Shown piece after piece: positions 12,224-31,736 of a stretch of DNA of 31,736 nt. The DNA comes from a virus. Location of the stretch: positions 1 to 31,736 of the IMG/VR virus record IMGVR_UViG_3300034198_025836, one strand, 5' to 3'. Every line of letters begins with the position of its first letter. The stretch's first letter is position 1. The translations under genes were made by a program, and so were the position numbers. Under the pieces are notes generated by a model. It had not been told where the DNA came from and ran no database searches. It saw only the letters and a program-made list of their open reading frames with translations.

Positions 12224-13786
12224 TTAGAATTCCAGAATGATTTTAATGTCTTCTTTTTGTCTTGCGCTTCTATTAACAAGAGGACGATTATCAATATAAA
12301 TTATTTCTCCAGATTTTTGGTTTATTTCTGGTGTTGCAATACCGTTGTTAAACGTCGATGACAAATTTACAATTTTTGTTGGAGAAACGTTAGTAGTAAT
12401 ACCACTAAAGTTAGCATCTATTGTCCCACTAAAGTTATTTATTGAAGTTATAGATCCTCCCTGAATAGAAAAATTAATTTTTTTAGATCTAACTGCAACA
12501 TTTTTAGAATCTTTTTGGTCATATGAAGTTTCATTATAAAAAAGAGATCTATCTGTAAAATACTTTAATACATTAGTTTCTTTATCAAAAGAAGCAATAT
12601 AACCAGTGGCAGTTCCAACTCCAGATATTGTTTGATATATGGCATTTCCTGCAATTGCATCATCCGGCGAAACGACACTAGATTGAACCAGTTTTAATGA
12701 TGATAAATTAGAAAATTTATCATCATTAAATATTGAAGTAGCAGATCCAACATAGGTTGGATTTTTTAAGACACCAATTTGAGCAAATTTAGAATCAATT
12801 GGAAAATCTTTAGAAGAATCGTCGAAACGAGCATAAATTAAAACTTTATCACAACCTAATTCCGTATAAATGTCATACCCATGTCCTCTGGATGGTGGTA
12901 TAATAGGAATTAAATGTGCAAAAGCAGTAGCTCCTTGATTTATTGACGATAAATCAACTCTACCATAACTGTAGTTTTTGCCACCACTCGATACTAAAAC
13001 GTCGCTTATTTTACCACCAACAACATCAACAACTACTTTCCCCCCTTCACCATCTCCTAATATGTCTAATTCTGATAAGGTCGTATTATAACCAGATCCT
13101 GGATTATTAATATAAACTTTTTTTATTTGATTTGAATTAACCAGAGAGTCTGCACTATTCCTAACTGCCTGTATATCTGCACTTGCACTTGTTTCCCAAT
13201 CATTTGGTACTGGTATATATTCAACTGAGTCAAATTTGATTACATCACTAGGATCTACGGTGAACATGTATTTCCAAATATATCCATCACCACTTTCCCC
13301 AGCCCTTGAAGGTTCCAAGTCTATAAAGTTCGGTTCATCTTGGGATGGATTTCCCAAAGGCTTAATTGACGAAGATCCATTATCAATACATAAGTAAACT
13401 TTAAATTGAGAATTAATTACATAATAATCTGCATCATAGAGCCGATATGAACTTGTTTTTGGTGAAGGATTTAAAACACTATAGTCATGTCTATACATTT
13501 CGTATACAGTATTTTGAACCCAATCAACTCTTCTTATTAATCTTCTAATATTATTAGGTGTTATTTTTTTACCAAAAATTATAGTATCTTTATAATGATT
13601 CAAATATTCTAAATTATCTATTGGTGATGGTGGATTTGAATCCCAACTTGTTGATCTTCCAAATCCAACAATGGACGGATTTGGTAAACTTAAAAAAACA
13701 TAGTGAGAATTTTGTGGATCTAATACGGAATCCACAAAATTTTTGGCATTGGATACTCTAAATTGATCCGTAACAATTGCAGACAT
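12224..13786 (-). CDS. 8: Baseplate wedge protein gp8, extended
   Basis: 520 residues against 334 in T4 gp8, which forms dimers in the baseplate wedge. The N-terminus IVTDQFRVSNAKNFVDSV and FLSLPNPS parallels T4 IVTSKFRTEKMLNFYNSI. The middle has SGDGYIWKYMFTV (T4 PGDGYVWEYLFEI), and the end GEIIYIDNRPLVNRSARQKE followed by DIKIILEF mirrors T4 GEMIYMENRPPI and EEINILFTF. The extra length contains a Gly-Tyr module at about residues 225-275 (NPGSGYNTTLSELDILGDGE, then SSGGKNYSYG). ATG at 13786 has AAAAAGGTAATA upstream and a TATAAATA late promoter just before it, so gp8 can be transcribed apart from the giant gene upstream. Confidence 0.95.
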   Translation of the reverse strand: MSAIVTDQFRVSNAKNFVDSVLDPQNSHYVFLSLPNPSIVGFGRSTSWDSNPPSPIDNLEYLNHYKDTIIFGKKITPNNIRRLIRRVDWVQNTVYEMYRHDYSVLNPSPKTSSYRLYDADYYVINSQFKVYLCIDNGSSSIKPLGNPSQDEPNFIDLEPSRAGESGDGYIWKYMFTVDPSDVIKFDSVEYIPVPNDWETSASADIQAVRNSADSLVNSNQIKKVYINNPGSGYNTTLSELDILGDGEGGKVVVDVVGGKISDVLVSSGGKNYSYGRVDLSSINQGATAFAHLIPIIPPSRGHGYDIYTELGCDKVLIYARFDDSSKDFPIDSKFAQIGVLKNPTYVGSATSIFNDDKFSNLSSLKLVQSSVVSPDDAIAGNAIYQTISGVGTATGYIASFDKETNVLKYFTDRSLFYNETSYDQKDSKNVAVRSKKINFSIQGGSITSINNFSGTIDANFSGITTNVSPTKIVNLSSTFNNGIATPEINQKSGEIIYIDNRPLVNRSARQKEDIKIILEF

Positions 13787-13802
13787 TATTACCTTTTTTA
13801 TG

Positions 13803-13810
13803 TATTTATA
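13803..13810 (-). promoter_or_regulatory. T4-type late promoter of gp8
   Basis: The minus strand reads TATAAATA, an exact match to the T4 late -10 consensus recognised by the phage late sigma factor gp55. It lies 16 bases before the gp8 ATG in one of the few intergenic gaps (13787-13857) of the virion block. Start of RNA synthesis would fall near 13796, giving a leader of about 10 bases that contains AAAAAGG. Confidence 0.75.
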
Positions 13811-13834
13811 TGGTATAAATTATGTTAATATTTC

Positions 13835-13859
13835 AATAATCATATTTATGATGATTATT
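13835..13859 (-). other. Hairpin at the end of the giant gene
   Basis: AATAATCAT (13835-13843) and ATGATTATT (13851-13859) form a perfect 9-bp stem with a 7-base loop, beginning inside the TAA of the 4212-aa gene. It is AT-only apart from one GC pair and has no T-run after it, so it is not a standard intrinsic terminator. It could protect the 3' end of RNA or weaken read-through into gp8. Confidence 0.4.
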
Positions 13860-16800
13860 ACACTAAATCTTTTTTCAAAGCTCCACTGTCTCTCAACCCA
13901 TATTTTCTTCTCTGCACTGTTGGAAATGTTGACAGTCCAGAAATAGTGGTATATTTTTGCAAATCAATTTGAATTGGAGATCTTGATCTCTCAAATCCAC
14001 TCAATCTTCCCCAAGAAAATCTACCACAGATATTTGATGTTGTGGCAATACCAACTGTATTTGTTGAAGATAAAACATTGCATAACATGACTCCATTCAA
14101 ATTGCTTCTTTGAATAGAATGAATATAATATATATTATCTAAAAATGTTGATCCTATTCCAACAACTTGATTATCATTAGCATCGATTGAAGTAATTCCG
14201 TTACCAACATTTGTATCAGAAATAAACACAGGATATCCAGAAACTAAATCATCATTTGCATCTGTTGAATTGTATTTTATAAAAAACTTTATTGCCAAAT
14301 ATGTTCCAACACCAACACTTGTGGTTATTCCCGTAACAATTCCCGAAAATCCCTGAACAAACTGAATATTATTAATTAATTCAGTCTTTGGATTTGGAAT
14401 TGGTGCTATAATTTGTGGGGGATTTGAAAAAGTGTATCCAAATCCGGGATTTATAATATAAACTGGATTAGTGAGTATTCCAGAGGGTGAAATAGAAACA
14501 TCTATTATGGCGTCTGTTCCACCATTTCCTACTATTGATCTAGTTTTTAATCTCAAACTATTTCCTATTCCAATATACCCACTACCACCAGAAATGATGT
14601 TAATACTAGAAATAGTAGATGAAGAAGAAACTGTAGCAGTTAATGCTGCAGAAATTGGATTGTCATTTAATACTATTAATCCAGAAAATTCCCTAATTTC
14701 CTCACTTGATTGATTTTCTTCATATTGGAAAAATTGTGCATCATCAACAAATATTTCACTACTAGTTTCAGAAAAACCTTTAATTATTCTTGCAGTTGGG
14801 AAAACCATAGATTCTATAGAATCTCTTTGCTTAGACTCAATACTATCATTAATTATTAAATCGGTTTTTTGTTTAGTCCAAGACATTGGTCTAAACAAGT
14901 CTTCAGTGATACCATCATTTAAATATATTCCAGTTTCCATTACATCAGATGAATTTATAAAAGAAACTGTTCTACTATCTTGACCAATACTATTGGATGC
15001 ATAGTCATCTTTAAGAATTTGTACACTATCTCCAACTTTAATAGTTTCTCTGACTTCTACTTCAGCACTATCTACTCCCAAAGTTCCTCTGTAGAAAAAT
15101 ATTGCAATATTATCTTCAGGTTTAGGTGCTTCATTAAATAATATTGTGGTTCCGCCAGTAAATGTATATGATACTTTAGGTTCTTGCATAACCCCATTAA
15201 GATAAATTAATAGAACCGTATCAAAATCAATTAAGGATGATGTTGGATCATTTACATTTTTTTCAAAACTTAGAAGGACATTATTTTTAAACAATGGAAA
15301 TCTTTTTCTAGTTCCATTTTGTAGAGTTTTTACGCTATCAATATAATCAAATTCCCCAAGTTGAATTGAAGAAAAACTATCAGTTCTAATATCAGTAACT
15401 GTAAATTTAATTTCACTTACAGGATTGCTTAATCTAGAATCAGTTACTAAACCTACTAAAGTGAAAGTATCTCCTATTAGAAATCCATATCCAGGTTTAA
15501 CAATTTCAAATCCAGTTAACCCAAATAATGTAGATCCTATACCAACCGATTTAGTAGATGGGCCAACGTCTACACTAATTGATAAACCAACTCCACATTT
15601 GTCAGTATTCCCAATTCCTGGTCTAAATATGGGTTTAATTGCCAAATGCTGGTAAGATGGATCTGATAGATAAACATTAGGATTACTGTATCCTGTTCCT
15701 CCAGAAATAATATTAAACCCTCTTATTGATCCACCAACACCGACTAAAGCAGTAATTACTGCTGCAGTTCCAGTGTGGGATTTTTCAGTAGCTCCAACAG
15801 AAATATTTCTATTATATCCAGATCCAAAAATAGGACCAATATCAAATCCAAATGCTGTTGAAATTGAAGAAGAATTAGTAGAAAATTCGGAAATAAATAC
15901 TGTTCCTAATCCAATTGCAGTAATTCTAGTATTGAATTTTAATATTTTCGTCTTATCTGGTAAAATAATATCTCTTGAGGTAATAGATGGTAAGTAAATT
16001 CCGGGAATATCAGTTAATCTTTGATTGATCTTCAAACCAGAAGTGTCAATTCCAGTAATTTGATTGCTATTAATTCCTATAGTTCCTGACGCATATTTTC
16101 CAATTACTAAAGAAGTTGTAAATCCTACGTTAGTTATTGATCCTCCAGCACCTGTTTTAACTTCAATCATACCAGTTGGTATTCCGACTAATGGTGCATA
16201 TCCAATTCCCTCAGTAGTTGCAACAGAAACTACTAAACCTCCACGAGGAAGTTGATTTTGATTCACATCATAATCAACAGTGAATACTGTAGGAGTATTG
16301 GGAATTTTAACTCCTGTAAACGATACGCTAGAAATACCTGATGGTGAAGTTAATATGTTATAATTATTTCCAATATTGTTATCAGTGTCTGGTGTTTGGA
16401 AAATATCATTTATAAAAACTAAATTATTTCCAGCAACAACATTAGAAACTAAATTTCCTTCTTTATACAATGTAAAGGTTCTAGCAACTCCGGTAAAAGA
16501 ATCTGATATGTCATCATAGATTTGATTTCCGGAATAATCTTTTCTCAGAAAAACTCTTCCATTGAAAGTAGATCTTGGAATAGGTAAATAATTATCACCT
16601 AAACGAGCATTGTTACCTTTTCCATCAGGTGCTTCCACAAAGAATATTTGATTCCCTACAATATTATATGCTCCCCTATAAACTCTTAAAGAAGTTCCAT
16701 CAGCGTGAGAAATTTCTGATGATCCTAAAGATGCTCTAATAACTTCAACTAATGGAATAGTTCCAATTCCAGTAATTGGACCAGATACAGTAGTTCCAAA

Positions 16801-19800
16801 ACCAACGTTGGATACAGATACAAATTCTTCTTGTATTTTAAGAATATCTTTTGGTACTATTGAAGATATTCCCGAAAGTGCAAAGAAAGTGGTTCCAACT
16901 CCAACAGATCCATTGTTATTGCCACTTAAAGTAAAACTTAATGGAGTATATGCAATCGGATATTGTGCAACACCATTAAGAGTAATCAAAGTTTTTTCAT
17001 TTTTCTTTTTCATTTCCAATTGATGAATATTACCAGATCCAGTTGAAGTGAATGTAAATCCTATTCCAGATAATCCAGAGACTCCAGTAATTTTAAACTT
17101 ATCATTATCAATTTTTAAAGCATATACTCTTGATGGGCATATATTTGTAGAAATTCCAGTTGAAAAAACAGATCTAAAAGTTGTTCCTGTAGAAACATTT
17201 GATATTTGTAATGATGGTTTTAAATTATTAGAATAATATATTCTATTTGATGCAATTTGAAGTGATGATGAAACTGCTATTGAGTTAATTCCAACGGATA
17301 TAACAGTCCCTAAAGAATCATTATTTCCAGAAAATATTCCAGAACCAACGGATATTACTTGAGTATTTGCAATACCAGTTATAACTGTTGATCCAGTTGA
17401 AACTACATTTCCCGTAAAGTAAGCAAAACTTTGTCCTATACCAGTTATTTGAGTTCCATTTGGGATATTCGAACCAATTACTATATCATTAACACTTATT
17501 CCCAATGTAGTTGATATTCCCGTAATAGTAGAAAAACCAGAAATTATATCAGCGACTATCGAAGAACCACCAACTATAGTTGTTCCAATTCCAACGGAAG
17601 TTGCTGCAACACCGATTAAAGATGATCTAGGAGTATATATTAGTTCCTCACCAGTTTCAAAAAAATGATTTTTAATAGTTATTATTCCAGTTTCTTTGTT
17701 AAATATAGACACATTTTTTGGATTAAATAATTTTGCAAAAATTGGTGTGCGTTCATGGTTTAAATCAAAGTTTAATCTATCTTTTCCAAAATTATTAATT
17801 GAACCATACCTACCAACTTCAATACTTTCTATTGATGTTCCGTAAGTTAAAGGTTCTGGATTATTAAATTCATCATATTCGGTATAAAAATATTGATCAT
17901 AACTTTGAATGGTTAATTGTGTTGATGAAAATTGTGGATCTGGATAAAATTGAACATTAACATTAAATTGATTCATTGTTGCTGCGAAAGTCCCTATTCC
18001 TGAGGTGCTTCCAATTGATAAAAATGGATAAGATTGAATATTACAAACAACTTGATTTGTTGTCACTAAAACTTGATGTACTGCTGTAGTTTTTCCTATT
18101 GATACTTTTACTATTGATTTTAAAGAAGACTCTATAGATCCATCAAAAGATTTAATAGTCGATGCTCCTGTTATCTTTTTAAAATTGGACTCTAATCTAG
18201 TTGTTCTTTCGGTTCCCTCAAGTTGTCCTTCAACAGAAAATCTATAAGTTCCTATTCCAGAAGCAGTAGTTCCAAAACCAACAGTTTTTGTTTTTACAAC
18301 AACGTTTTTATTTGTTTTATTTGTAAATGATAAATTTAGTACTTGATTATTATCTACGTTTGTACCAAATGTTCCAATAAATCCTCTAGACATACCACCC
18401 AATAGATTTTCACTATCAAAGTAAAACTCTGCTAAATGTGTATCTATTCCATCATAATATCCAATAACTTCATAATAATTTAATTTATAATCATCAGTAT
18501 TAATAATTAATGAATTTGAATAAAATACATCAAATTGAGACGTTAAACCTCTAAAAACAACTGTCGAAACTCCTACTGATGCTGCTAATCTTTCTGTTTT
18601 TGATGATAATCTAATAAAACCATAATCAGTAAATCCAATTCCAATATTAGAAAAACCATCATCAAATGTTTCTCTATATGTTTTTAATCGATAACTAGAG
18701 TTATATGGGTCTGTTGGTGTAAATTTAAGAACAGGATCACCAACTGAACTAACATCGCCACTAAAAGTTCCTAATAATTCATCAGTAAATAAATCCGTTT
18801 TGTTCAAAGTATAAGTATTTTGTTTTAAATCATTTAGAATTACAACTTCACTAGTTTGAAATTTTAAGTTATCTTCAGTAGAAATTTGAACTAAAAATTT
18901 AGAATATAAATCAGTTATCGGATATTCTACAAGTTCTAGGAACTCATCTTTGTTAAATTCTGAGCTAGAGAATATATTGCTAATATCATCTATTTGTAAA
19001 ACTCTATTCGTATTGCACTGAATAAAATCTGTTAATTTTTTATTTTTTAATCTAATGAATTGTGAAGAATTTGATGTTGTATCATAATCAGCAGCAAAGT
19101 CAAAAACATTGATAGTATCAACTCTTTTTTCCGCAACAAAATTTAAAGTTGTAAGTAGTTTTTCTGAAGATCCTATAGAAATTGTTGCTGCAGAAGTAAT
19201 TCCAACATCTGCAAAGTTTTTTAATCCAATTGGATGAATCAGACTATTAACCGGTCCGACAAATTTATCATACTCTATAGGACTCTTAATAGAATACGAT
19301 AAATTTTGATAATAATCATTATCTGGTATTACTTGAGTGTCTAAGTTTAATTTTCCTACGTTAGTTTTCCATCCAGATCTACTTTCATTGGAAGAATCTA
19401 CACTATATCTTCCACTATATGTAAAAAATTGACTTATTTTTGCGACAGATCCAGATACAGAACCTTTAATAATATCATTTTTACTAATATTATCTTCCAC
19501 ATTGAAAAGTTTTACTGAAGAGTCTGATGATTCTTTAATTTTAATATCGGTTGGTATATTATTAACAGATATAGATTCATTATCAATAAACCTAGCATAT
19601 TTCTGATTAATTTCAAAAACTGGATAATTTTTAACATTAACAATAGAACTAAAAACAGTTTGTTTTGGAAGTGGAACACCTGCAGAATTAGTATATTTTC
19701 CAATATTATATTTTAAAACAGCTGGATCTGAGTTTACAAATTCAGTAACCTCAAAGAAGTTATATCCATTATCATCAGAATTAAATCCTGTTCCTGGTGA

Positions 19801-22800
19801 ACTTACATTTCCCAACTCATCTGTAAAAGATGCTTTTTCTATACCCTCAACAAATATTAAGTCTCCTGCTGAGAAAGGAGCTACAGAAAATCCAGTTATA
19901 GGTGGAGTTCTTATTTCACACTCAACTATACCGTTGAGATATGTAGTAACACCAACGATGGGAATTCCATTACTGTTCCTAACAGTAAATATTTTATGTG
20001 TTACAGCATCTAGGCCAGATGGTTGATTTATAATTTGAATTTCCGATATGGAATTTTGACCCATAGTTGCTTTAATAAAACCACTATTAACTTCTTTTCC
20101 AGTTACGGTATTTACTAATTTTAAATTAGGTTCAGAAATATAATTTTTTCCTCCACTAATAACACTAACTGATGCTATAATTTGTGATGCACTTATAAGT
20201 GCAAACGTATCAATATCACAAGAGGGTCTTATAGTATTATCGGAAGAATATTCAAATCCATCATTTAATATTCTGATTAATCCAGGTTTTCCTATGGTTA
20301 TAGATTCGCATTCCACTACTGCATTTTTTCCCGTGCTTAAACTCGATATTCCTATAAACGATGGTAATTTTTTATACCCACTTCCACCGTTTAAAAGTAA
20401 AATATTTGAAATTGGTCCTTTCGAATTCTTTGATTTTGTTGTGTAATATGCAGAAACATTGTTATTGTTAACATAATTTAATTTTTCTGGTGTTTTTTTC
20501 AAAGAAATTGAAAATGTAGTTGTCCCAACTCCAGTAATTTTATATTCTCCATTGTACAAACTGTCTACAAATTCTATTTTAAAATCATTTTCGTTCTCAT
20601 TTTCAAAAACACTTTTTCCTAATTTAGATAAAGAATAATATAATCTGTTTGGAAAATCTTTATTGTAAATTAATTTGCAACTTGCATCAGGTGAAACGCC
20701 AATTGTCTTAAGTTTTTCAACGTTGAAATTTGAACTATTTCCTATAGAGATAAACTCTGTTTTTAAACTATTATCATAGTAGATATTAAAATCAAAACCT
20801 TGTAGAGAAGGATCTGATACATCAAAAACTAAATTATTATTTTTAATATTTTCAATAAATGGATTTACTTGTGCAATAGATTGATTAGAACCACCAGTAC
20901 TTCCAATAGAAATTGTTTTAGGGGGAGAAAAATTAGCATCAGAATATGTTTCTGATATTTTTATTGTATTTTTGTTTAACTTTACGGCATAATAAATCCC
21001 CGTACTTAAACCAGAAATAGATTGATCAGTATAATTGTAAAATATTTTTTGACCGTTATACAAACCATGAGAATTTAATGTGATTTCATTTTTGGTCACA
21101 TTAACGTGAGAAGAACTAAATCCTATAGAATTGACTAATAGTAAGTTATTACTGGAATTGTATTTTAATCTAACTGAAGAGCTAGTTCCGATTCCAACAG
21201 AAGAAGAAGGAATAACACTTAATTTTATAGAATCCCCATTAATTAAATTGTGATTTTTAGACGTTGATATTGTTGTTTTTATTTTTTCTACATTTGCAAC
21301 TATTTTTTCAACTTCACTACTTAAACTGTATTCAAAATTAAATGATCCGTTATTAACAAATAATAATCCGTCTGATGATGTAGTCAGACCAACATTAGTT
21401 ACTATACCAATATAATCTTTAGATTTATTAATTGTATACACATATTCACTCTCAGAACTTAAGAGTGTAAATGATGGGTCATTAGATGCTGCGTTTTGAA
21501 CTACTATTCCAGAAGCTGATATTGGTCTTCTAAGCAATAATTTTTGACTTGTTTTGAATGGATGGTTTGGTAGGTAAATACTTTGTGTAGGTACGGATAT
21601 TGATTTATAAGTACCATCTAAAATATAATTCAGAGGTTTTGAACTTCCAGTTACAATTCCAACTCCAATACTGTTATGTGGATTAAAATAAACAACATCA
21701 TCATTCCTAGATTCAAAATAGTCAGAAAGAACATTAATTTCAAACAATGATGGTAAAAATGAAACTAAATTTCCGGAGGTATGTGCTATGCCGACATTTC
21801 TCTTAACTCTTAGAACATTAATATCATCAAATTTATTTAAAACAGAAAATATTTGTTGATTTATTTTTAATGAACTTCCAATACTAATATTTTTTGGAAT
21901 ATTGGATAAACTAATATCTGTTACAATTCCACCACTACTAGGAATATTTTTTACAATAATAGAATTAAAATTGTCAAATTTTATTTGATGTGTTCCAGAT
22001 AAATTTTTAACAAAAGTTGAAATACCATTAATTTGAATTGTATCGCCGTTTTCTAAGTTATGATATGGTAATATATTTAATTTTATTGTACTATTATTCC
22101 ATTCAATAATAGAATTTTCATATATCTCCAAAGTAGTATTTAAACTAGTGATACCTTCTCCCTGAATTTCCGATATTTCGGCAGAAATTCCTCCACCACT
22201 AGTTTCAGTGTTATCAAATTTTAAAGATTCACCGACAGAATATTCACTTCCAGGGTTGATGATATTTAATTTTTCAACTTTTCCTGGTAGAACAGTTTCT
22301 ATAATAGAAGTTTGTTTTAATCTATTGCTATATTTTGGTAAAAAATCATTACTTGAATATTGACTCTTTACTCTATATGGAAATGTGTTTCTAATTAAAG
22401 ATGTTTTATTTAAATCAAAACTCTGATCAATAATAGAGTTATCATAAATTTTTGATCTATAATTTTTTCCTATAAAATAAGGAAATTTTGGAATTAATTT
22501 TCCAGTTGTTAAATCTGTAGAAAGACCAACATAATAGGCATAAGTTCCATTGGGAAATTCTGGAGTTTTAGCAAATCTACCGTTATTTTCATCCAAATCT
22601 CCAGAATTATCATAAACATAATCCTCTACAAAAAATCCAGAAGAAAAAGAAGACTCTGGAGGTCTATTGTAGATATTATTCGAATTTAAAATGTAACTAG
22701 TATCTAATAAACTTACAGGAGAATTAAAGTCTGAAGGATCCTTATATGCATATGGACCATAAATTGGATTTCCATCTAGTGCCCAACCAATGATTTTAGA

Positions 22801-25800
22801 GTGTGATGATGCCGAATCCGAAAAAGATACACCTGCTCTATCTGTGGAATAACCAATTACCCCATATGTTAAATCATCTTCTGATTCTAGTAAAATTTCA
22901 TCTACAAATCTAAAATTGTTATTTACGGATAAATATCTGACTGAAGAATCTAAAAACGCATTTGCTCCTGGAGTTTCGATTGTAATTGAAGTATTAGATT
23001 TATTATAACCAGTTCCACCATTTATAACAACGATAGATTCAACTTTTCCATCAACGACAACTGGTCTTAAGATGCACCCTATCCCATCTCCAATAACATT
23101 TAATTGTATTCCCTCAGAATAAAAATTTCCTTTACTTTGAACTTGAACTGCTACAACTTTCCCATTAATAATAGCAGGTTTTAGTTGACATCCGGATCCT
23201 TTGATAATTGATAATTTTGGTTTTTTATGAAAATTTAAAACTTCTGATCCATAATTGGATCCATTTTCATAAACATATGCATCTACTATTTTTCCTCGAA
23301 GTATTGGAGAAGCTGTTATCGTGCCTATAAATCCAGAATATTCTACATTTATATCAACTTTAATAGGGGGATAAGAAAAAATTTGATATCCAGATCCAAC
23401 ATCGGTTATATTAACAATTTTTCCTCTTTCATAGTTTGTTTTTGATGCACCAACGCTAATGAAATCAGCATCAGACAATTGAAATCTGTCTTTTTCTGAA
23501 TTTATAATGTAGTAATTTTTTAAAGTTGATATTCCAGAAACTGGAGTGCCCAACGAAGAATAATTAATTAAATCACCATTATTAAATCCATGATTTTTAA
23601 ATGTAATAAAATTGGTAATTGATGAAATTCCAGAAGTTTTAACTCTTAAAACTCTATTTTGATATCCACTACCACTATTAATTACTTTAATATCGGATAA
23701 AACTTTTTTAGAATCAAAAACTCTAAATTTATGAATTCCCCCATTGTTAATGGTAGTAATACCTATAGTATTAATTCCAGCATTTAAATCCGAAAGATTG
23801 CTATAGAGTTTTATAGATTTTGTGTTAATTATTTGTGGATAATAAATAGATCCATTAGACAAATATGTTGATTGGTCAGAATTAGAACCTGCAAAAAGTC
23901 CTATGCCAATGGGCAAATTACCATTTGAATTGTAAACAATCTTATCATTTATATTAAATTTGTGGGGATATAAAAATGTAATAGTCTCTGAACTAATATT
24001 AAGTCCCCCACCATCGGAAGTAGATGCTGCATTAAATTCAACTTCTCTATACTTATTTGATATAATTGGTGTTAGTATCGCACCAGTTCCGTTACCACCA
24101 GAAAGAGAAACTGAAATAACTCTTTCAATATCAACATCATTTGGATCAACTATTACTTTTTGTAATGAACCAGAAACTACTAGATTAACTAAAGCAGTTG
24201 TTCCGAGTCCTACAGGATTTGAAACTACAACTGGTGGTGGATAAAGTACATCATAATCATTTCCGGGATTAATAACTTTGACAGATTCTAGAGGACCATA
24301 ATAAATTCTATCATAACTTTTATAATTTATAATGTCTACACCGCTAATTAATGACCCAACAACACCAGGTTCAGTTTCAAAAACATCTTCATAATTGTTT
24401 TTTGGGTATAGTGGAATTTTAATAAAAGATTTTTTTGGTGCTAAAGATTTCCCATAATGTGAAGATAGTGTAAATGAATGTGTTCCTAACTGCAAATCTT
24501 TAGAAAATACAAGGTAATCATTTTTAGCAACAAATGATCTAGCAACGTATAATCTAATTTTATTTTTTGGATTTAATACTTCTACAACATATTCTTCATT
24601 ACTTGTTAAACCAGATATTGGACTTGGTGTTGTATGTGTATAAGTTACAATATCACCAGTAATAAATGGCACGTCATTATCAAATGATAATTCAGAATAT
24701 TTTACAGTTTGTGGATTAAAATTTGAGAAAAAATTATCATTATCATTTAAAGTAGATAATGTTTTTTTAATGTCGTATATATTCTTAGTAATATTATATG
24801 ATGGCAAAGAATTTGAAGCTACATAAACAAATTCGTTATTATCATTGTATGTATTTTGAACATTAGATAATGCTTTTGAATATTTAAGCGGTACTCCCGA
24901 AGATGATGCATAATCATATCTTCGTATTATACTTAAATTTTGACCAAAAACTAAATTATTTCCTTCTATTTGTTGATCTATTTCTACTGTATTTTGATTA
25001 ATAGATCTAACTATTGCATTTTCAATAACTATCTCAAAAGAATTTTGTTTAACTATATCAACATAATCATTAACTTTTAAACTACTTTTGTCTGGTTGGT
25101 CAAAGAGAGTAAAGGTAGGATTTCCTATTGAATAGTTTTTTATTTCATACCTACTTCTTACATTGTAAATCCAAGAATTAAAGTTAAGTTCTTTTAGAGT
25201 TTTATTTGAAGATAATGAAATACTTTCTCCAAAATTTCCAAGAGAAACACGATCCCCGTCAGAAAAATAATTTACTCTTTCAATATTTTCTATGCCATTC
25301 AATGTACTAATAACAATAAATTCAACTTTCTTAGTTTCATCTCCATTTTCATAACCATATACAGTAGGTGTTGAATATATCTCAGTCCCTTGATTTATTT
25401 GTTGAGAAATTCCAGAACAATTAAAAAATTGATTAACAGACTTGTCAGTATATGATATAGTTTTATTATTATATTTTAGTGATCCCGAATCTTCAAATCC
25501 ACCAGTAGAGTCTACAGTTATTATTGAAGCTCCTACAGAAACTGTTTCTGAGACTTTAGTTTTTGGTGTAATTTTGAATTTTCCAAAAATACTACTAGAT
25601 TCATCAAACCCACTAAACAAGTATATTTTGTAAAATGTGTTATTATTTCTAGTAACAACTTCAACTTCGGAGACTGGTCCGAATGCATTATTATCTGAAC
25701 TTTTAATTTCCTCTCCTATTAAATTATTCGGATTTGTACCAGGAGTGATTAGTTGACCTATTAAAACTCTTCTTTTAATATATTCACTTTCCGATGGTTT

Positions 25801-26496
25801 TATTAAATAATCTTCTAAATTTAAAACTATAGGGTCAAATCCATATAGAACTTTAAATAAAATTTTAAAAGATTCTTCAGTTCCTTTAGAATTGTAAAAA
25901 TCTCTAATTTGTTTTAGAAAATTATTAACATTAAGATTTGATTGTAAATCAAGATCTTCAAACCCAGGTGCAAAAAGATATTTTAACTTTTTGTAAAATT
26001 CCTTTAAAAATAATGTACTTAAATTTATAACTTGTGATCCAGAAGAGTGTGATGCTGCTAATGTTTCTGAAAACACTAACTCTTCTGGGCTTAAAGAATT
26101 CCTGTAAGAAGAAATAGCAGAAAATCCACGAATACATCCAACAAATGTATTTCCTTCTATTTTTGAGTAGGTAATAATTTCATCATCTATTTTTAATAAA
26201 CCATACTCTGAGGGAAAAGATTTTGTTGACTGAACAGTTATAGTTTGATTAGTAGAATTTATACTTGATGTTAAAACAGTTTTTCCTGAAATTACTTCTG
26301 GAGTAAGATTATCAAATTTTAAATACTGATCGAGATTTTCTACAATATCAGAAGGACCACTTTGATACTCTTGAGAAATATAATATTGTTTTAAAAATTC
26401 AGATATTTTCGGACTTTCGTCTAAAATAAACTCCGGTAATTGATTGTTAATAATTTGTTGGGTTTTTACTTTTTGTTCAAATCCAGTAGATATCAT
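13858..26496 (-). CDS. Giant baseplate protein in the gp7 position, 4212 aa, with YHYH domain
   Basis: 4212 residues, roughly 450 kDa; T4 gp7 at the same place has 1032. The N-terminal 300 residues (QLPEFILDESPKISEFLKQY; FLKQIRDFYNSKGTEESFKI; VLYGFDPIVL) are the conserved start of the large baseplate proteins of cyanomyoviruses. Near residues 1215-1345 lies a YHYH domain: HSKIIGWALDGNPIYGPYAY, then GDLDENNGRF, FPNGTYAYYVG and FPYFIG. About fourteen Gly-Tyr modules are scattered through the chain (for example INSGSGYQNR, INGGTGYNKS, ISGGTGYSNP). Related segments with an LNGVxQxP core occur near 3170 and 3770 (YLNGVMQEPKVSYTFTGGTT), with a diverged one near 3360. ATG at 26496 follows the gp6 stop by one base and uses GAGGTAAT as ribosome site. 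It probably makes the wedge core between gp6 and gp8. No signal peptide or membrane segment is evident. Confidence 0.88.
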   Translation of the reverse strand: MISTGFEQKVKTQQIINNQLPEFILDESPKISEFLKQYYISQEYQSGPSDIVENLDQYLKFDNLTPEVISGKTVLTSSINSTNQTITVQSTKSFPSEYGLLKIDDEIITYSKIEGNTFVGCIRGFSAISSYRNSLSPEELVFSETLAASHSSGSQVINLSTLFLKEFYKKLKYLFAPGFEDLDLQSNLNVNNFLKQIRDFYNSKGTEESFKILFKVLYGFDPIVLNLEDYLIKPSESEYIKRRVLIGQLITPGTNPNNLIGEEIKSSDNNAFGPVSEVEVVTRNNNTFYKIYLFSGFDESSSIFGKFKITPKTKVSETVSVGASIITVDSTGGFEDSGSLKYNNKTISYTDKSVNQFFNCSGISQQINQGTEIYSTPTVYGYENGDETKKVEFIVISTLNGIENIERVNYFSDGDRVSLGNFGESISLSSNKTLKELNFNSWIYNVRSRYEIKNYSIGNPTFTLFDQPDKSSLKVNDYVDIVKQNSFEIVIENAIVRSINQNTVEIDQQIEGNNLVFGQNLSIIRRYDYASSSGVPLKYSKALSNVQNTYNDNNEFVYVASNSLPSYNITKNIYDIKKTLSTLNDNDNFFSNFNPQTVKYSELSFDNDVPFITGDIVTYTHTTPSPISGLTSNEEYVVEVLNPKNKIRLYVARSFVAKNDYLVFSKDLQLGTHSFTLSSHYGKSLAPKKSFIKIPLYPKNNYEDVFETEPGVVGSLISGVDIINYKSYDRIYYGPLESVKVINPGNDYDVLYPPPVVVSNPVGLGTTALVNLVVSGSLQKVIVDPNDVDIERVISVSLSGGNGTGAILTPIISNKYREVEFNAASTSDGGGLNISSETITFLYPHKFNINDKIVYNSNGNLPIGIGLFAGSNSDQSTYLSNGSIYYPQIINTKSIKLYSNLSDLNAGINTIGITTINNGGIHKFRVFDSKKVLSDIKVINSGSGYQNRVLRVKTSGISSITNFITFKNHGFNNGDLINYSSLGTPVSGISTLKNYYIINSEKDRFQLSDADFISVGASKTNYERGKIVNITDVGSGYQIFSYPPIKVDINVEYSGFIGTITASPILRGKIVDAYVYENGSNYGSEVLNFHKKPKLSIIKGSGCQLKPAIINGKVVAVQVQSKGNFYSEGIQLNVIGDGIGCILRPVVVDGKVESIVVINGGTGYNKSNTSITIETPGANAFLDSSVRYLSVNNNFRFVDEILLESEDDLTYGVIGYSTDRAGVSFSDSASSHSKIIGWALDGNPIYGPYAYKDPSDFNSPVSLLDTSYILNSNNIYNRPPESSFSSGFFVEDYVYDNSGDLDENNGRFAKTPEFPNGTYAYYVGLSTDLTTGKLIPKFPYFIGKNYRSKIYDNSIIDQSFDLNKTSLIRNTFPYRVKSQYSSNDFLPKYSNRLKQTSIIETVLPGKVEKLNIINPGSEYSVGESLKFDNTETSGGGISAEISEIQGEGITSLNTTLEIYENSIIEWNNSTIKLNILPYHNLENGDTIQINGISTFVKNLSGTHQIKFDNFNSIIVKNIPSSGGIVTDISLSNIPKNISIGSSLKINQQIFSVLNKFDDINVLRVKRNVGIAHTSGNLVSFLPSLFEINVLSDYFESRNDDVVYFNPHNSIGVGIVTGSSKPLNYILDGTYKSISVPTQSIYLPNHPFKTSQKLLLRRPISASGIVVQNAASNDPSFTLLSSESEYVYTINKSKDYIGIVTNVGLTTSSDGLLFVNNGSFNFEYSLSSEVEKIVANVEKIKTTISTSKNHNLINGDSIKLSVIPSSSVGIGTSSSVRLKYNSSNNLLLVNSIGFSSSHVNVTKNEITLNSHGLYNGQKIFYNYTDQSISGLSTGIYYAVKLNKNTIKISETYSDANFSPPKTISIGSTGGSNQSIAQVNPFIENIKNNNLVFDVSDPSLQGFDFNIYYDNSLKTEFISIGNSSNFNVEKLKTIGVSPDASCKLIYNKDFPNRLYYSLSKLGKSVFENENENDFKIEFVDSLYNGEYKITGVGTTTFSISLKKTPEKLNYVNNNNVSAYYTTKSKNSKGPISNILLLNGGSGYKKLPSFIGISSLSTGKNAVVECESITIGKPGLIRILNDGFEYSSDNTIRPSCDIDTFALISASQIIASVSVISGGKNYISEPNLKLVNTVTGKEVNSGFIKATMGQNSISEIQIINQPSGLDAVTHKIFTVRNSNGIPIVGVTTYLNGIVECEIRTPPITGFSVAPFSAGDLIFVEGIEKASFTDELGNVSSPGTGFNSDDNGYNFFEVTEFVNSDPAVLKYNIGKYTNSAGVPLPKQTVFSSIVNVKNYPVFEINQKYARFIDNESISVNNIPTDIKIKESSDSSVKLFNVEDNISKNDIIKGSVSGSVAKISQFFTYSGRYSVDSSNESRSGWKTNVGKLNLDTQVIPDNDYYQNLSYSIKSPIEYDKFVGPVNSLIHPIGLKNFADVGITSAATISIGSSEKLLTTLNFVAEKRVDTINVFDFAADYDTTSNSSQFIRLKNKKLTDFIQCNTNRVLQIDDISNIFSSSEFNKDEFLELVEYPITDLYSKFLVQISTEDNLKFQTSEVVILNDLKQNTYTLNKTDLFTDELLGTFSGDVSSVGDPVLKFTPTDPYNSSYRLKTYRETFDDGFSNIGIGFTDYGFIRLSSKTERLAASVGVSTVVFRGLTSQFDVFYSNSLIINTDDYKLNYYEVIGYYDGIDTHLAEFYFDSENLLGGMSRGFIGTFGTNVDNNQVLNLSFTNKTNKNVVVKTKTVGFGTTASGIGTYRFSVEGQLEGTERTTRLESNFKKITGASTIKSFDGSIESSLKSIVKVSIGKTTAVHQVLVTTNQVVCNIQSYPFLSIGSTSGIGTFAATMNQFNVNVQFYPDPQFSSTQLTIQSYDQYFYTEYDEFNNPEPLTYGTSIESIEVGRYGSINNFGKDRLNFDLNHERTPIFAKLFNPKNVSIFNKETGIITIKNHFFETGEELIYTPRSSLIGVAATSVGIGTTIVGGSSIVADIISGFSTITGISTTLGISVNDIVIGSNIPNGTQITGIGQSFAYFTGNVVSTGSTVITGIANTQVISVGSGIFSGNNDSLGTVISVGINSIAVSSSLQIASNRIYYSNNLKPSLQISNVSTGTTFRSVFSTGISTNICPSRVYALKIDNDKFKITGVSGLSGIGFTFTSTGSGNIHQLEMKKKNEKTLITLNGVAQYPIAYTPLSFTLSGNNNGSVGVGTTFFALSGISSIVPKDILKIQEEFVSVSNVGFGTTVSGPITGIGTIPLVEVIRASLGSSEISHADGTSLRVYRGAYNIVGNQIFFVEAPDGKGNNARLGDNYLPIPRSTFNGRVFLRKDYSGNQIYDDISDSFTGVARTFTLYKEGNLVSNVVAGNNLVFINDIFQTPDTDNNIGNNYNILTSPSGISSVSFTGVKIPNTPTVFTVDYDVNQNQLPRGGLVVSVATTEGIGYAPLVGIPTGMIEVKTGAGGSITNVGFTTSLVIGKYASGTIGINSNQITGIDTSGLKINQRLTDIPGIYLPSITSRDIILPDKTKILKFNTRITAIGLGTVFISEFSTNSSSISTAFGFDIGPIFGSGYNRNISVGATEKSHTGTAAVITALVGVGGSIRGFNIISGGTGYSNPNVYLSDPSYQHLAIKPIFRPGIGNTDKCGVGLSISVDVGPSTKSVGIGSTLFGLTGFEIVKPGYGFLIGDTFTLVGLVTDSRLSNPVSEIKFTVTDIRTDSFSSIQLGEFDYIDSVKTLQNGTRKRFPLFKNNVLLSFEKNVNDPTSSLIDFDTVLLIYLNGVMQEPKVSYTFTGGTTILFNEAPKPEDNIAIFFYRGTLGVDSAEVEVRETIKVGDSVQILKDDYASNSIGQDSRTVSFINSSDVMETGIYLNDGITEDLFRPMSWTKQKTDLIINDSIESKQRDSIESMVFPTARIIKGFSETSSEIFVDDAQFFQYEENQSSEEIREFSGLIVLNDNPISAALTATVSSSSTISSINIISGGSGYIGIGNSLRLKTRSIVGNGGTDAIIDVSISPSGILTNPVYIINPGFGYTFSNPPQIIAPIPNPKTELINNIQFVQGFSGIVTGITTSVGVGTYLAIKFFIKYNSTDANDDLVSGYPVFISDTNVGNGITSIDANDNQVVGIGSTFLDNIYYIHSIQRSNLNGVMLCNVLSSTNTVGIATTSNICGRFSWGRLSGFERSRSPIQIDLQKYTTISGLSTFPTVQRRKYGLRDSGALKKDLV

Positions 26497-26497
26497 A

Positions 26498-28372
26498 TTA
26501 CCTCGTTATTTTTCCGCTAGAATAACTTGAAGTTAGTGGGAAATTCTTACCCGATATTTGTTCTCCGGACACAACAGTATCCTTTAACATATTTATGATG
26601 CTTTTTGAAACATCAAATGAAATATACAAATCATTCAAACCAACAACATCGTTTGAATCTGGACGTGCTTCTATTTCAACAACATTATTTGGCAATTCTG
26701 TTCCCGTAATATAAATTGTATTAATTAATATTTCTCCAGTTTTATAGTCGACAGTTCCAACAGATGTTTTAATAACTTGATATCTATTGTTTTCCGAAGG
26801 TCTAACAATACTCAATATTCCTATATTACTATTTTCCTGTGGAACATCAATAAAATAAACTAAATCACTTTCTCCCAAAATATTGAAACCTGTTGATTTT
26901 ATATTATATTCACCAAGTAATTTTCTGAATGCATTTCCAAAACATAACTCATATTGCGAAAAAACATTAATTGCACAATTTAAATTTCTTCTAATTTTAA
27001 TGTTAGTTATATTGGAAGTAATGCTAGAATCTACGTTGTCTATAATCTGCAAAACTTTACTATATCTAAATCTTCCACCAAATTTATTAAGATCCACAGA
27101 TTTTGAATATGACTCTAAAGATGAAATTATTTTGGATTTTAAATCATTTATATTTGATATTTTTGAAGAATCATAATAAACGGATGATTCTAACTCAACA
27201 TATAGTAATTTTAAATCTATGATTTTTTGATTTATTCCTGATATACTATATTGCTTTAATTTTGATAATATTTTTGATTTGGTAAAATCTGAGATTGTAT
27301 ATGCATTTTTTGGTTTAATGCTAATTAAAACATTTCCAAACTCTGGCGGATTCATTTCTTCTCCACCAATAACAGAAACAGATTCTGTATTTGGATATAT
27401 TTCTTGTATAATTGCCTCATAATCTCTTGCAGTAACTGCTCTATGCTGCGAAGCATATACTCTAGGAGCATAATATTTAATAGATTCTATTGGCTCAATA
27501 TCCCCACCACCCATTGCAGGAGAATTAGTTATTACACTAACAGTTCCAACTGGAGATTGTACGACGTCTAAAGTGTTTACAACTACTCCAGAATAACTAA
27601 ACAACGAAGGACCATTTCCATCTTTTCCTTCGGTTACAATATAACTTACTTTTACTATATCATTATTTGATAGTTTTTTACCTATTATTCCATCTCCAAA
27701 TAATATTTCATATTTTTCATCTTCTATTTCTTGAATTAAGAAAATTTCTGAATTTTCATTTAATTTTAAAATATTATTTACTTTTTGATATTCTACATTA
27801 CCCACTTTAACGACAATAGTATTTGTATCTATATTCGAATTGTCTAAAATATATCTCTGATTTATTGAAGAATCAACTGTAAATTGCTTGGTAACATAAA
27901 TTCCTTGATAGATATCAATATTACTAAAAGAAGCGACCGAAGTATTTTGATCAACTGTTGTTACAATGTTTTCTGGAATTGAAAAAACATAAGAACTATT
28001 TTCAACTGATCCGACCGCAACTAATCCAGCTTTTAATATAATTTGTGTTGGTAATTGAACCGGGTTTGGTAAATTTATATTAAATGAAATATTTGCTATT
28101 GCAGAAGTTTTAGATCTAGGTACATATCCAATGTTTCTAGACAAAGAGACAATATTTTCTCTAAGTGTTGCAGAATCCAAAAAGGATTCATTCACAATCA
28201 TATTTGAGTTAAATGCTGTAATATAAGTGTTATACGCTAGAGTATCAATTAAGACTGAAAAATTAGAACCTTCAAAATCAAAATCAGTAAAGGTTGAATT
28301 TGCTCTTAAATAATCTTTTATCGATTGCCTAATTTGATCGAAATCTAAATTGGTGAATTTAGTAAAAGGCAT
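26498..28372 (-). CDS. 6: Baseplate wedge protein gp6
   Basis: 624 residues against 660 in T4 gp6, which forms the inner ring that triggers sheath contraction. The N-terminus FTNLDFDQIRQSIKDYLRA followed by FDFEGSNFSVLIDTLAYNTY and LRENIVSLSRNIGYVPRS is the gp6/J-like start. The segment APRVYASQHRAVTARDYEAI is the strongly conserved baseplate J motif, with IYPNTESVSVIGGEE after it. The C-terminal third holds alternating beta strands. ATG at 28372 lies one base after the gp25 stop, with GAGG about 13 bases upstream. gp25 and gp6 interact directly in contractile tails, and their adjacency fits. Confidence 0.95.
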   Translation of the reverse strand: MPFTKFTNLDFDQIRQSIKDYLRANSTFTDFDFEGSNFSVLIDTLAYNTYITAFNSNMIVNESFLDSATLRENIVSLSRNIGYVPRSKTSAIANISFNINLPNPVQLPTQIILKAGLVAVGSVENSSYVFSIPENIVTTVDQNTSVASFSNIDIYQGIYVTKQFTVDSSINQRYILDNSNIDTNTIVVKVGNVEYQKVNNILKLNENSEIFLIQEIEDEKYEILFGDGIIGKKLSNNDIVKVSYIVTEGKDGNGPSLFSYSGVVVNTLDVVQSPVGTVSVITNSPAMGGGDIEPIESIKYYAPRVYASQHRAVTARDYEAIIQEIYPNTESVSVIGGEEMNPPEFGNVLISIKPKNAYTISDFTKSKILSKLKQYSISGINQKIIDLKLLYVELESSVYYDSSKISNINDLKSKIISSLESYSKSVDLNKFGGRFRYSKVLQIIDNVDSSITSNITNIKIRRNLNCAINVFSQYELCFGNAFRKLLGEYNIKSTGFNILGESDLVYFIDVPQENSNIGILSIVRPSENNRYQVIKTSVGTVDYKTGEILINTIYITGTELPNNVVEIEARPDSNDVVGLNDLYISFDVSKSIINMLKDTVVSGEQISGKNFPLTSSYSSGKITR

Positions 28373-28373
28373 T

Positions 28374-28775
28374 TTATCTAGTTGCCTCTAAAATATAATT
28401 GAATGATTGTGTTGGAAAATCTTGCCCTATAATATCAAAAATAACTGTTATTTCAAACTCATTTTGATTTGGATCTGGTGATACTTCAACTTTTACATTA
28501 TCTACTCTTGGTTCATAATTTAATATTGCAATTTCAATTTGAGTTTTTAATGAAGATGCAGTACCAAAATCTACAAATTCAAACAAAGATGTTTTAATAT
28601 CTGAACCAAATGAAGGATTAAAAAATCTTTCACTTGGCATTGTTTGTATTATATTTCGAATAGATTTTTTAATCGCATCTTCATTTTTCAAAGCGACAAT
28701 ATCTTTAGTAACTGGATGCATGTCAAAAGAAAGACTAATGTCCTTAAATATTCTAGATATTCTTTTAGTTTGCAT
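28374..28775 (-). CDS. 25: Baseplate wedge protein gp25
   Basis: 133 residues, matching T4 gp25 (132). gp25 joins gp6 and the sheath and is conserved in all contractile injection systems. The family signature is clear: EDAIKKSIRNIIQTMPSERF followed by FNPSFGSDI, then an ILNYEPRV strand and a final EITVIFDI. I chose ATG at 28775; the TTG at 28778 just before it would add one residue and has no advantage. No Shine-Dalgarno is visible. The gene is the first behind the late promoter at 28796-28803 and is followed closely by gp6. Confidence 0.95.
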   Translation of the reverse strand: MQTKRISRIFKDISLSFDMHPVTKDIVALKNEDAIKKSIRNIIQTMPSERFFNPSFGSDIKTSLFEFVDFGTASSLKTQIEIAILNYEPRVDNVKVEVSPDPNQNEFEITVIFDIIGQDFPTQSFNYILEATR

Positions 28776-28795
28776 CAATTATTCGATATTTTCTT

Positions 28796-30445: not shown

Positions 30446-31204
30446 TCAAATCACTCTTGTTTTTTCGTGCCCAACTCTAATACGAGGATCGCACCAAATT
30501 TCAAATCCTGCTTCCTTTGCATCCAGGCAGAATGATACATCCTCTCCACACATGTCTTGTACTTCTCCAGATTCGAAGACTTGCATTTTAGGTGCAAACC
30601 AAGGATACTTCATTTCCTCATGTTCGAATATACCGTGCTTAATTAGCAACCAACCAAATCCTGCATAATCAACAGTGAAAGGTTTACGACGCTTTGAGAT
30701 ACTTTCTACGGTTTCATGATTCATGACGCCGCCATTGTTTCTGAAATCATCTTCTTCCATCCAATGAGCAACCGATGTGGTATGCCCATCCTCTGTAGCG
30801 TACCATCCAGAAGCAATGTCCTTATCCATTAAAATCAACTGAAAGAATTTTTCTGTATTGAATACAATATCAGAGTCTATCCAAAGTTGATAGTCATAAT
30901 GAAGTTTTCCATCCCAGGGAAGTTGATCAGGACCTCTTAATACATTTGCTCCGAGGCACTTGCAACGGGCAAAGTTAACCATGGAACTGTAATCTTGTGA
31001 AATTTGAATACTTGCTCCGTTCTGTACAAGATCAAAACAAAGTTGAACAAAATTTTTCAAGTATGTGTAAGAAACTCCTCTTCCTGGAAGACAAAAAACA
31101 ATTGACTTCCCCTTGATCATTTCTTTTGCTTTATCATAATCCCATTCTAAAGTTTCTTGTGAAGGAATGGGTGTTTTTGCTTTTACTGTGAATCCTTTAG
31201 CCAT
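30446..31204 (-). CDS. GT-A glycosyltransferase-like protein, 252 aa
   Basis: 252 residues. Features of the GT-A fold: KGKSIVFCLPGRGVSYTYLK as the first strand and nucleotide-binding turn (about 31-50), YQLWIDSDIVFN with the metal-binding DSD at 110-112, a CGEDVSFCLDAKEAGFEIWC segment with the acidic pair of family 2 enzymes, and the terminal DPRIRVGHEKT with His near 247, the usual second metal ligand. It would transfer a sugar from a nucleotide sugar in the cytoplasm; the acceptor (DNA base, virion protein or host glycan) is unknown. Such genes occur in cyanomyoviruses. No Shine-Dalgarno precedes ATG at 31204; a strong sigma70 promoter lies just upstream, so host RNA polymerase can express it early. 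Confidence 0.8.
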   Translation of the reverse strand: MAKGFTVKAKTPIPSQETLEWDYDKAKEMIKGKSIVFCLPGRGVSYTYLKNFVQLCFDLVQNGASIQISQDYSSMVNFARCKCLGANVLRGPDQLPWDGKLHYDYQLWIDSDIVFNTEKFFQLILMDKDIASGWYATEDGHTTSVAHWMEEDDFRNNGGVMNHETVESISKRRKPFTVDYAGFGWLLIKHGIFEHEEMKYPWFAPKMQVFESGEVQDMCGEDVSFCLDAKEAGFEIWCDPRIRVGHEKTRVI

Positions 31205-31227: not shown

Positions 31228-31256
31228 ATCATACAATATTATGTATGCTTTGTCAA
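31228..31256 (-). promoter_or_regulatory. Consensus sigma70 promoter for the accessory genes
   Basis: On the minus strand, TTGACA (31251-31256) is an exact -35 box, followed by a 17-base spacer and TATGAT (31228-31233), five of six to the -10 consensus. RNA should begin near 31221, giving a leader of about 17 bases to the glycosyltransferase-like start. This is the expected form of an early promoter read by host polymerase and probably drives the accessory block to speD and the 80-aa gene. Confidence 0.8.
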
Positions 31257-31266
31257 TTTGATTAAT

Positions 31267-31437
31267 TTATTTTTCTTCTGAAAGGAAAATATCATCTCCT
31301 TCAACCGAAAATTTAATAGGAGTGTCTTCATACCAAGAAAATTCATTTACAATCCACTCAGGTATTATAACATAATACTCTCCAGTTATGGGATCGACTT
31401 GTAATGGTTGAATATTTTTGCCGCAATTTTTTTTCAT
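31267..31437 (-). CDS. Small conserved protein, 56 aa, AbrB-like in outline
   Basis: Found by hand translation; stop TAA at 31267-31269. It begins MKKNCGKNIQPLQVDPITGE, continues YYVIIPEWIVNEFSWYEDTP and ends IKFSVEGDDIFLSEEK. The series strand, IPEWIVNEF helix, WYEDTPIKFSVEGDDIFL strands resembles the IPxxVxxxLxxxxGDxVxxxVxxxxIxL outline of AbrB/MazE-type DNA-binding domains; this is an inference, not a search result. I recall similar small proteins in cyanomyoviruses. The start is fixed, because an in-frame TAG stands directly before ATG at 31437. No Shine-Dalgarno is visible. The sigma70 promoter follows its stop by 10 bases, so the gene must be read from a promoter further right. Confidence 0.75.
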   Translation of the reverse strand: MKKNCGKNIQPLQVDPITGEYYVIIPEWIVNEFSWYEDTPIKFSVEGDDIFLSEEK

Positions 31438-31736
31438 CTAATTGGAATAAAAGTTTATTTTTCATTTCTTATATAGAAAAATTTTTTTTTATATTCGTAT
31501 GATTGAGCTAGCGAATGCAAGACTTTATAGCTTACAGGGACCCATCGTTTTTAGGCACACGGCGCCCGCCATCACGATACCGTTATACCATAATACTGCT
31601 GCTGCCACGAACGAACGGGGGTGGGTGTGCCACCCCCCGAACTGTCACTTCACGTCGCCCAGGGCGCTTGCCTTGGTGCTCATCCGGGTGGCGCTGCTGC
31701 CTGCTGCTCCACCGTGGGTGCGAACGCGGGTGCTGC
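31438..31736. other. Region of abrupt base-composition change, no confident gene
   Basis: 31441-31500 is very AT-rich (8 of 60 GC by hand count) with A and T runs; 31501-31560 is intermediate (27 of 60); 31561-31736 is 116 of 176 GC. The rest of the window is strongly AT-rich. Several frames stay open because the DNA is GC-rich: on the plus strand from ATG at 31499 to the edge (79 codons), and on the minus strand two frames entering from the edge and ending at 31680-31682 and 31645-31647. None has a recognisable family or ribosome site. The AT-rich part may hold the promoter of the 56-aa gene, but no convincing -35/-10 pair is seen. No tRNA T-loop is visible. Confidence 0.6.
31617..31637. other. 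Strong GC hairpin in the right-edge segment
   Basis: GGGGGTGG (31617-31624), loop GTGTG, CCACCCCC (31630-31637): an 8-bp perfect stem that could extend with a bulged C. No T-run follows on either strand. On the minus strand it lies just after two short open frames that end at 31680-31682 and 31645-31647, so it could be a hairpin terminator of a GC-rich gene entering from the right. Confidence 0.5.

Follow-up and report, generated by a model that had tools for sequence, protein, structure and literature searches.

We studied the right-hand end of a 31,736-base virus record from IMG/VR (IMGVR_UViG_3300034198_025836; this whole stretch is called the window below), where the guanine-plus-cytosine (GC) content rises abruptly. 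We propose that this end is probably the genuine edge of a GC-rich island carried by a T4-like cyanophage, at which an array of small, probably early genes, written in the codon dialect of the host, meets the late structural module; the array would be expressed through the polymerase and tRNAs of the host, and the late genes through the tRNAs of the phage. The GC step itself is real and far beyond chance. GC content is 13.3% at 31441-31500, 45.0% at 31501-31560 and 65.9% at 31561-31736, so that an earlier note on this DNA, which reported a jump from 13% to 66% within 60 bases, was correct in its values and coordinates. Positions 1-31440 have 30.1% GC overall, and their 176-nt windows have a mean of 30.0%, a standard deviation of 4.6 and a maximum of 46.0%. 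The GC-rich end thus lies about 7.8 standard deviations away from them, in line with the earlier remark that it is unlike anything else in the window. As judged from its gene content, the contig is the structural module of a T4-like (Kyanoviridae-like) cyanophage: it encodes gp25, gp6, gp8, a neck protein, a head-tail adaptor, the terminase small subunit and an S-adenosylmethionine decarboxylase; the baseplate genes gp25, gp6 and gp8 stand in T4-like order and have cyanophage homologs. The closest annotated phage for 26000-31736 is S-SRM01 (71.1% nucleotide identity across 80%). Since every open reading frame (ORF) of more than 128 amino acids in the window sits on the minus strand, the GC-rich end is upstream of the structural module.

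The junction recurs in other phages. Using the 56-amino-acid protein encoded by the first gene on the AT-rich side (31267-31437) as the query, we found 69 loci in IMG/VR, near-duplicates included. Where at least 240 nt precede this gene (66 loci), GC content climbs by at least 20 points within those 240 nt in 64; it reaches at least 55% there in 41 loci and 45-55% in 22, and stays lower in 3. One other contig (L044, identical to L012) matches the window across the junction itself at 90.8% over 491 nt, L045 does so at 85.0% over 492 nt, and the isolate P-SSM2 keeps the order of last small gene, boundary block and 56-amino-acid gene. The last island gene, cut by the contig end in the window, belongs to a family that we call p64. 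A relative is encoded by 139 viral contigs, of which 80 were kept and grouped into 51 clusters at 95%; 10 of these lacked one side, and the other 41 have representatives with at least 600 nt on both sides of p64. GC is higher upstream than downstream in all 41, with means of 55.8% (38.5-67.0) and 33.3% (29.0-40.2), and the gap is at least 15 points in 31, at least 20 in 28 and at least 25 in 17. We also took six longer contigs (G001-G006, the longest six of eight) from the loci with the 56-amino-acid gene. Each has exactly one stretch of at least 55% GC in merged 1-kb windows, always at this site: about 4.8 kb in the 177-kb G001, 3.8 kb in G003, 4.8 kb in G005, 4.9 kb in G006, 2.8 kb in G002, where it meets the contig end, and 1.1 kb in G004. 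An exact 29-mer of the boundary block (31517-31545) is present in 31 IMG/VR stretches, and in 20 of the 24 that have both sides the island side is at least 10 GC points higher; the 29-mer thus marks the GC step in other cyanophage contigs too.

About 14 tiny genes make up the island, which is about 4-5 kb long in most of the longer relatives; the array shares its strand with the baseplate module. L046 has 14 hand-picked ORFs of about 49-100 amino acids and is 79% coding, and L038, which is the island of G001, is comparable, also with 14 hand-picked ORFs. In part of the relatives, sites resembling a host promoter precede these genes: TTGAC-N16-18-TACAAT or TAGAAT stands ahead of five L046 genes and about seven in L038/L175. 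In the L175 region, with 1.2 sites expected, promoter scans gave 8, of which 7 are on the array strand; in the L164 region, with 1.1 expected, they gave 9, of which 6 lie within the array and have its orientation. When a strict pattern was applied to every representative that extends at least 2 kb upstream (29 in all), the mean was 2.28 sites per region, and base shuffles gave 0.12. At 54 of 66 sites, 23-26 nt separate the end of the -10 box from the following start codon, and a stem of at least 6 pairs (one mismatch allowed) is found at 41 of the 66 -35 boxes, as against 71 of 1160 random positions. The two features expected of an array of promoter-early-stem-loop (PeSL) type, a host-type promoter directly before small genes and a stem-loop coupled to it, were therefore found, the former in 18 of the 29 relatives and the latter at the 41 boxes just mentioned. 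The island gene families occur in 5 to 39 of the fetched loci, duplicates included. When 10 of the 14 island proteins of L046 were used as queries (9 valid, 1 in a wrong frame), Pfam matched one (DUF7249) and PHROGs matched four, all of unknown function and one weakly (E 0.009). The next-to-last island gene, p85 (L046 3230-3487 and homologs), has a predicted winged-helix fold with a predicted local distance difference test (pLDDT) score of 80.4; the best Protein Data Bank match of the model is the regulator PcaV (E 4.1e-4), followed by several MarR-family regulators and Z-DNA-binding domains. From this predicted fold, p85 could be an early transcription regulator.

The island and the late genes use two different codon dialects. 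GC at first, second and third codon positions (GC1/2/3) is 57.7/46.9/77.8 for the island genes of L046 and 58.7/47.0/79.4 for those of L038, compared with 37.5/37.2/13.7 for nine late genes of the window and 37.8/36.7/10.6 for 13 ORFs of at least 100 amino acids at 140-170 kb of G001; within this single contig, GC3 is thus 79.4 in the island and 10.6 in the late genes. Arg AGA, Leu TTA and Ile ATA make up 0.80, 0.63 and 0.40 of their codon sets in the late genes of the window and 0.00 each in the islands, in which Thr ACC reaches 0.81-0.91 and ACG 0.04-0.06. For the host side we used Cyanobium LBMAG, Cyanobium CH-040 and Synechococcus WH 5701, selected from the 80 psbA loci that were retained out of at least 583. 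Because unfiltered CH-040 ORFs may include shadow ORFs, the host genes were frame-filtered and ribosomal-protein operons were used as well; a few wrong ORFs may remain. For relative synonymous codon usage, rank correlations with the three hosts are positive for the islands (+0.75 to +0.85) and negative for the late genes (-0.69 to -0.77); by this measure, host ribosomal-protein genes are at least as close to the islands as bulk genes are. With third-base composition held constant, the partial correlation of the islands is 0.68 with ribosomal-protein codons and 0.51 with bulk genes; the gene bootstrap gave a ribosomal-minus-bulk difference of 0.063 (0.036-0.091). The islands (L046 76-3748, L038 7143-10724) also nearly lack Val GTC, although Thr ACC and Ile ATC dominate in them, and their Ser TCG, Thr ACG and Ala GCG lie below those of host bulk genes. 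These scarcities of GTC, TCG, ACG and GCG are accounted for by neither GC content nor host usage. As for tRNAs, the 177-kb G001 has 11, of which ten read A-ending codons and the eleventh is tRNA-Asn. All ten of these codons are commoner in late than in island genes, with CTA rare and GCA common in both.

Taking these observations together, we suggest a likely mechanism. The array genes would probably be expressed early, and many of them, in the better-defined arrays, would have their own host-type (sigma70) promoter, with the -35 box often placed at a GC hairpin and the start codon 23-26 nt past the -10 box. The array would be written in the dialect of a high-GC picocyanobacterial host, and just after injection the host RNA polymerase and host tRNAs would express it. 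Since only the host polymerase and tRNAs are present at injection, host-optimal codons would pay in the array. Later, phage late promoters and phage tRNAs would carry the AT-rich structural genes, whose AT-ending codons may suit genes that are made once phage tRNAs are supplied. We infer the early timing, the use of sigma70 and translational selection as the cause from the sequence patterns described above. A wider proposal, which we regard as close to evenly balanced and put forward tentatively, is that such genomes have two codon dialects split by expression time: an early block in the host dialect, which would follow the host in its evolution independently of the rest, and a late genome in the AT dialect, bound to phage tRNAs. 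The junction with its conserved non-coding block would then be a regulatory boundary between them.

Several results weigh against this mechanism. The 56-amino-acid gene was not found downstream of p64 in 5 of the 41 representatives, and the strict promoter pattern is absent in 11 of the 29 (an earlier census of 23 hand-picked representatives had 7 without a promoter site). Third-base composition alone correlates at 0.84-0.86 with codon usage in the LBMAG host, while particular codons depart from that of the hosts: Val GTC is 0.02-0.04 in the islands and 0.14-0.34 in the hosts, and Ala GCA 0.26-0.28 and 0.03-0.08. G003 has the island but just 2 tRNAs in 146 kb, and no tRNA was found in the 50-kb G005. 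The island spacers are GC-rich as well (60.5%; leaders 57.1, the rest 62.8), compared with 20.9% for 326 nt of non-coding DNA in the window. Codon selection alone leaves these spacers unexplained, and a regional process may therefore contribute or be the cause. The rise is also weaker in isolates, in which 2.5 kb upstream were compared with 5-15 kb downstream: 42.8 vs 32.1% in P-SSM2, 40.6 vs 30.3% in S-SRM01, 43.1 vs 30.2% in S-SKS1 and 39.2 vs 36.8% in Sf-CH5; in 250-nt bins the S-H38 locus has 38-48% GC and the S-CREM1 locus 34-55%. Because of this weaker rise, we did not adopt a simple rule by which early GC equals host GC. Finally, a high-GC picocyanobacterium as the host is itself inferred, which we count as a further point against the mechanism; the joint best match of the G001 psbA is Cyanobium, at 90%.

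The spacers lead directly to the main rival explanation: the island is real, but its GC content comes from a regional process, either GC-biased recombination in an array prone to shuffling or repeated cassette exchange with a pool of high-GC phages, and its host-like codons merely follow from composition. Besides the GC-rich spacers and the strong effect of third-base composition, homologous stretches vary widely in GC among phages (p53 by 30-62%, for example), upstream and downstream GC are weakly and negatively correlated across the representatives (rho -0.38), and the authors of the S-PM2 study discuss, in the available portion of their text, the shuffling of PeSL elements in T4-like phages (PMC4503421). 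Against it, the islands track host ribosomal-protein codons beyond third-base composition (the partial correlation of 0.68), and neither the absence of AGA, TTA and ATA nor the dominance of ACC with so little ACG is what simple GC pressure would give. We regard a purely regional origin as possible but somewhat doubtful. An assembly chimera of cyanophage and unrelated GC-rich DNA at the contig end, which the earlier note favoured, is very unlikely, and the least probable reading that we considered. Contigs do often end here: by a hand count over the 69 loci, near-duplicates included, 18 end within 800 nt upstream of the 56-amino-acid gene and 2 within 800 nt downstream, and an exact 29-mer common to 31 stretches could mislead an assembler. 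However, other contigs also have this junction beside the same flanking gene, so that it is not unique to this one; it lies within contigs that continue for at least 3 kb upstream, and its order is conserved in an isolate; the earlier note had itself named the same junction in related phages as support for real acquisition. The uneven contig ends would rather reflect assemblies that break at the boundary, which would also explain why the window stops here. The skew in contig ends also hints that island DNA assembles poorly.

Host-like DNA, another suggestion of that note, is right in terms of composition and codon usage, which resemble those of Cyanobium and Synechococcus chromosomes, but not in terms of origin, since the edge gene is a phage gene. 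Its family is encoded by the 139 viral contigs, whereas a pattern-based scan of genome contigs for p64 gave 39 pattern matches and no relative, and a profile search in 7 cyanobacterial genomes, made without a positive control, found none; P-SSM2 has a homolog in the same place. In other phages, the GC content of homologous island-gene stretches is 46-71% for p64, 30-62% for p53 and 40-64% for p61. The viral relatives, the lack of any in the genome scans and this variation between phages indicate phage genes rather than a recent piece of host chromosome, and recent capture of host chromosomal DNA is highly improbable. The idea that the GC-rich end is a structured non-coding RNA draws on a strong hairpin (31617-31637), a conserved non-coding block (31514-31592) and the minus-strand folding of the GC-rich end, with a z of -1.70 (9 of 200 shuffles fold as well). 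This idea fared little better: the remaining three of the four single-strand foldings gave z of -0.73, +1.61 and -0.48, Rfam gave nothing at curated cut-offs, with only sub-threshold matches in the end region (E 0.26-2.9), and RNAalifold found no common fold across 39 boundary sequences, a set that left out S-SKS1 and whose alignment is poor in the GC-rich half, making this a weak test. We consider a structured RNA quite unlikely. Since no common fold was found, we treat the boundary block as a DNA-level element, which may act as a regulatory site, or as a leader.

Within the window, only the end of the last island gene, its hairpin and the boundary block represent the island, and no array promoter is included. 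The p64-family gene (31645-31734, minus strand) is present as its 3' end of 29 codons and a stop, ...STRVRTHGGAAGSSATRMSTKASALGDVK*; this part is 96.6% identical to the L046 protein, whose full length is 63 amino acids, and has a GC3 of 79%. The GC hairpin directly after it (31617-31637, minus strand) has 8-bp arms (31617-31624 and 31630-31637) and a 5-nt loop. It is terminator-like but has no T run, and a terminator scan of the window gave it no score, while a comparable hairpin in L175 did score. Between this hairpin and the boundary block lies the motif GTTCGTTCGTGGCAG (31602-31616, minus strand), whose recurrence in the boundary sequences and P-SSM2 was seen by eye, without statistical scoring. 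The conserved non-coding boundary block follows (31514-31592, minus strand). Apart from the 29-mer, its part at 31514-31553 matches S-H38 (40 nt, 97.5%) and its part at 31561-31592 matches S-CREM1 (32 nt, 93.9%), both in non-coding DNA ahead of a different gene, and a relaxed search for the block found one copy in 5 of 13 sequences and none in the remaining 8. On the AT-rich side, CTATATAA (31469-31476, minus strand) recurs a few tens of bases ahead of the next gene, as read by eye in the upstream sequences, and may be a candidate late promoter. The gene for the 56-amino-acid protein, also on the minus strand, comes next; its S-SRM01 homolog is annotated as "DNA-binding domain-containing protein," while Pfam gave no match and PHROGs gave phrog_661, of unknown function.

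Farther into the AT-rich module, a sigma70-like promoter match, TTGACA-17-TATGAT (31228-31256, minus strand; 11 of 12 positions), stands ahead of the gene at 30446-31204. The scan around it gave 3 sites in the region against 1.6 expected, and the match lies within the AT-rich module. The gene itself has a strong match to phrog_1574 (unknown function) and a weak match to a glycosyltransferase PHROG. The AT-rich late structural (baseplate) genes span 12224-28778 on the minus strand and were assigned by family matches, except for gp7, which was assigned by position relative to P-SSM2: gp25 (28374-28778), gp6 (26498-28372), a single ORF for a 4212-amino-acid protein at the gp7 position (13858-26496) and gp8 (12224-13786). 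Very long genes at the gp7 position are found in P-SSM2 and S-SRM01 as well.

Our results can be compared with known systems, as described in the available portions of the cited papers. Small orphan-gene blocks, PeSLs, early/late codon differences and cyanophage tRNAs have all been reported (PMC4503421, PMC9964418, PMC13015707, PMC5683454, PMC6224464, PMC5082946, PMC12482277), and the island is an extreme version of two known kinds, early small-gene arrays and early/late codon differences. It resembles the PeSLs of T4-type phages (Puxty et al. 2015, PMC4503421) in its small gene cassettes, its host-type early promoter with a stem-loop and its variable arrays. It differs in that GC is about 60-67% in the array but near 30-35% in the genome, and in that the -35 box is often at the hairpin itself. 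In the same paper, PeSL elements are described as far sparser in S-PM2 than in other T4-like phages, and the S-PM2 "ORFanage" is likewise described as small orphan genes grouped in one block, again in a T4-like cyanophage; the term "GC content" occurs 0 times in the portion of that paper at hand. Differences in codon usage between early and late phage genes have been reported by Mioduser et al. 2017 (PMC5683454) and for Shigella phage Sf14 (PMC12482277). In Sf14, early GC3 is not significantly different from that of named host groups, and it is the late genes that best match the tRNA pool of the phage; late GC3 there is 31.6% against 54.4% for the host, while here 79.4 and 10.6 adjoin inside one contig as a sharp block. 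The S-TIM4 evolution paper (PMC6224464, citing Enav et al.) refers to the proposal that tRNAs help cyanophages in Synechococcus and describes host-codon-optimising mutations that arose in the laboratory; that case concerns genome-wide tRNA effects or point changes, whereas here a block has its own dialect. As for timing, 95% of the genes common to P-HM2 and P-SSM2 keep their time class (PMC5082946), a figure not specific to array genes. In the open-licence literature, which leaves most subscription journals uncovered, we found no description of an early island that is GC-rich and has a codon dialect of its own.

It is a long-standing question why lytic phages carry tRNAs and have a GC content unlike that of their hosts, and the usual approach has been through modest differences between early and late averages. 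Here the two states adjoin and are about 65-70 points apart in GC3, in a block that recurs and whose genes have homologs in other phages that vary greatly in GC. Since the dialects adjoin and the homologs vary in this way, translational selection and regional mutation or recombination can be separated by comparison and by recoding. Moreover, since contigs tend to break at the island, its genes may be under-represented in viral catalogues.
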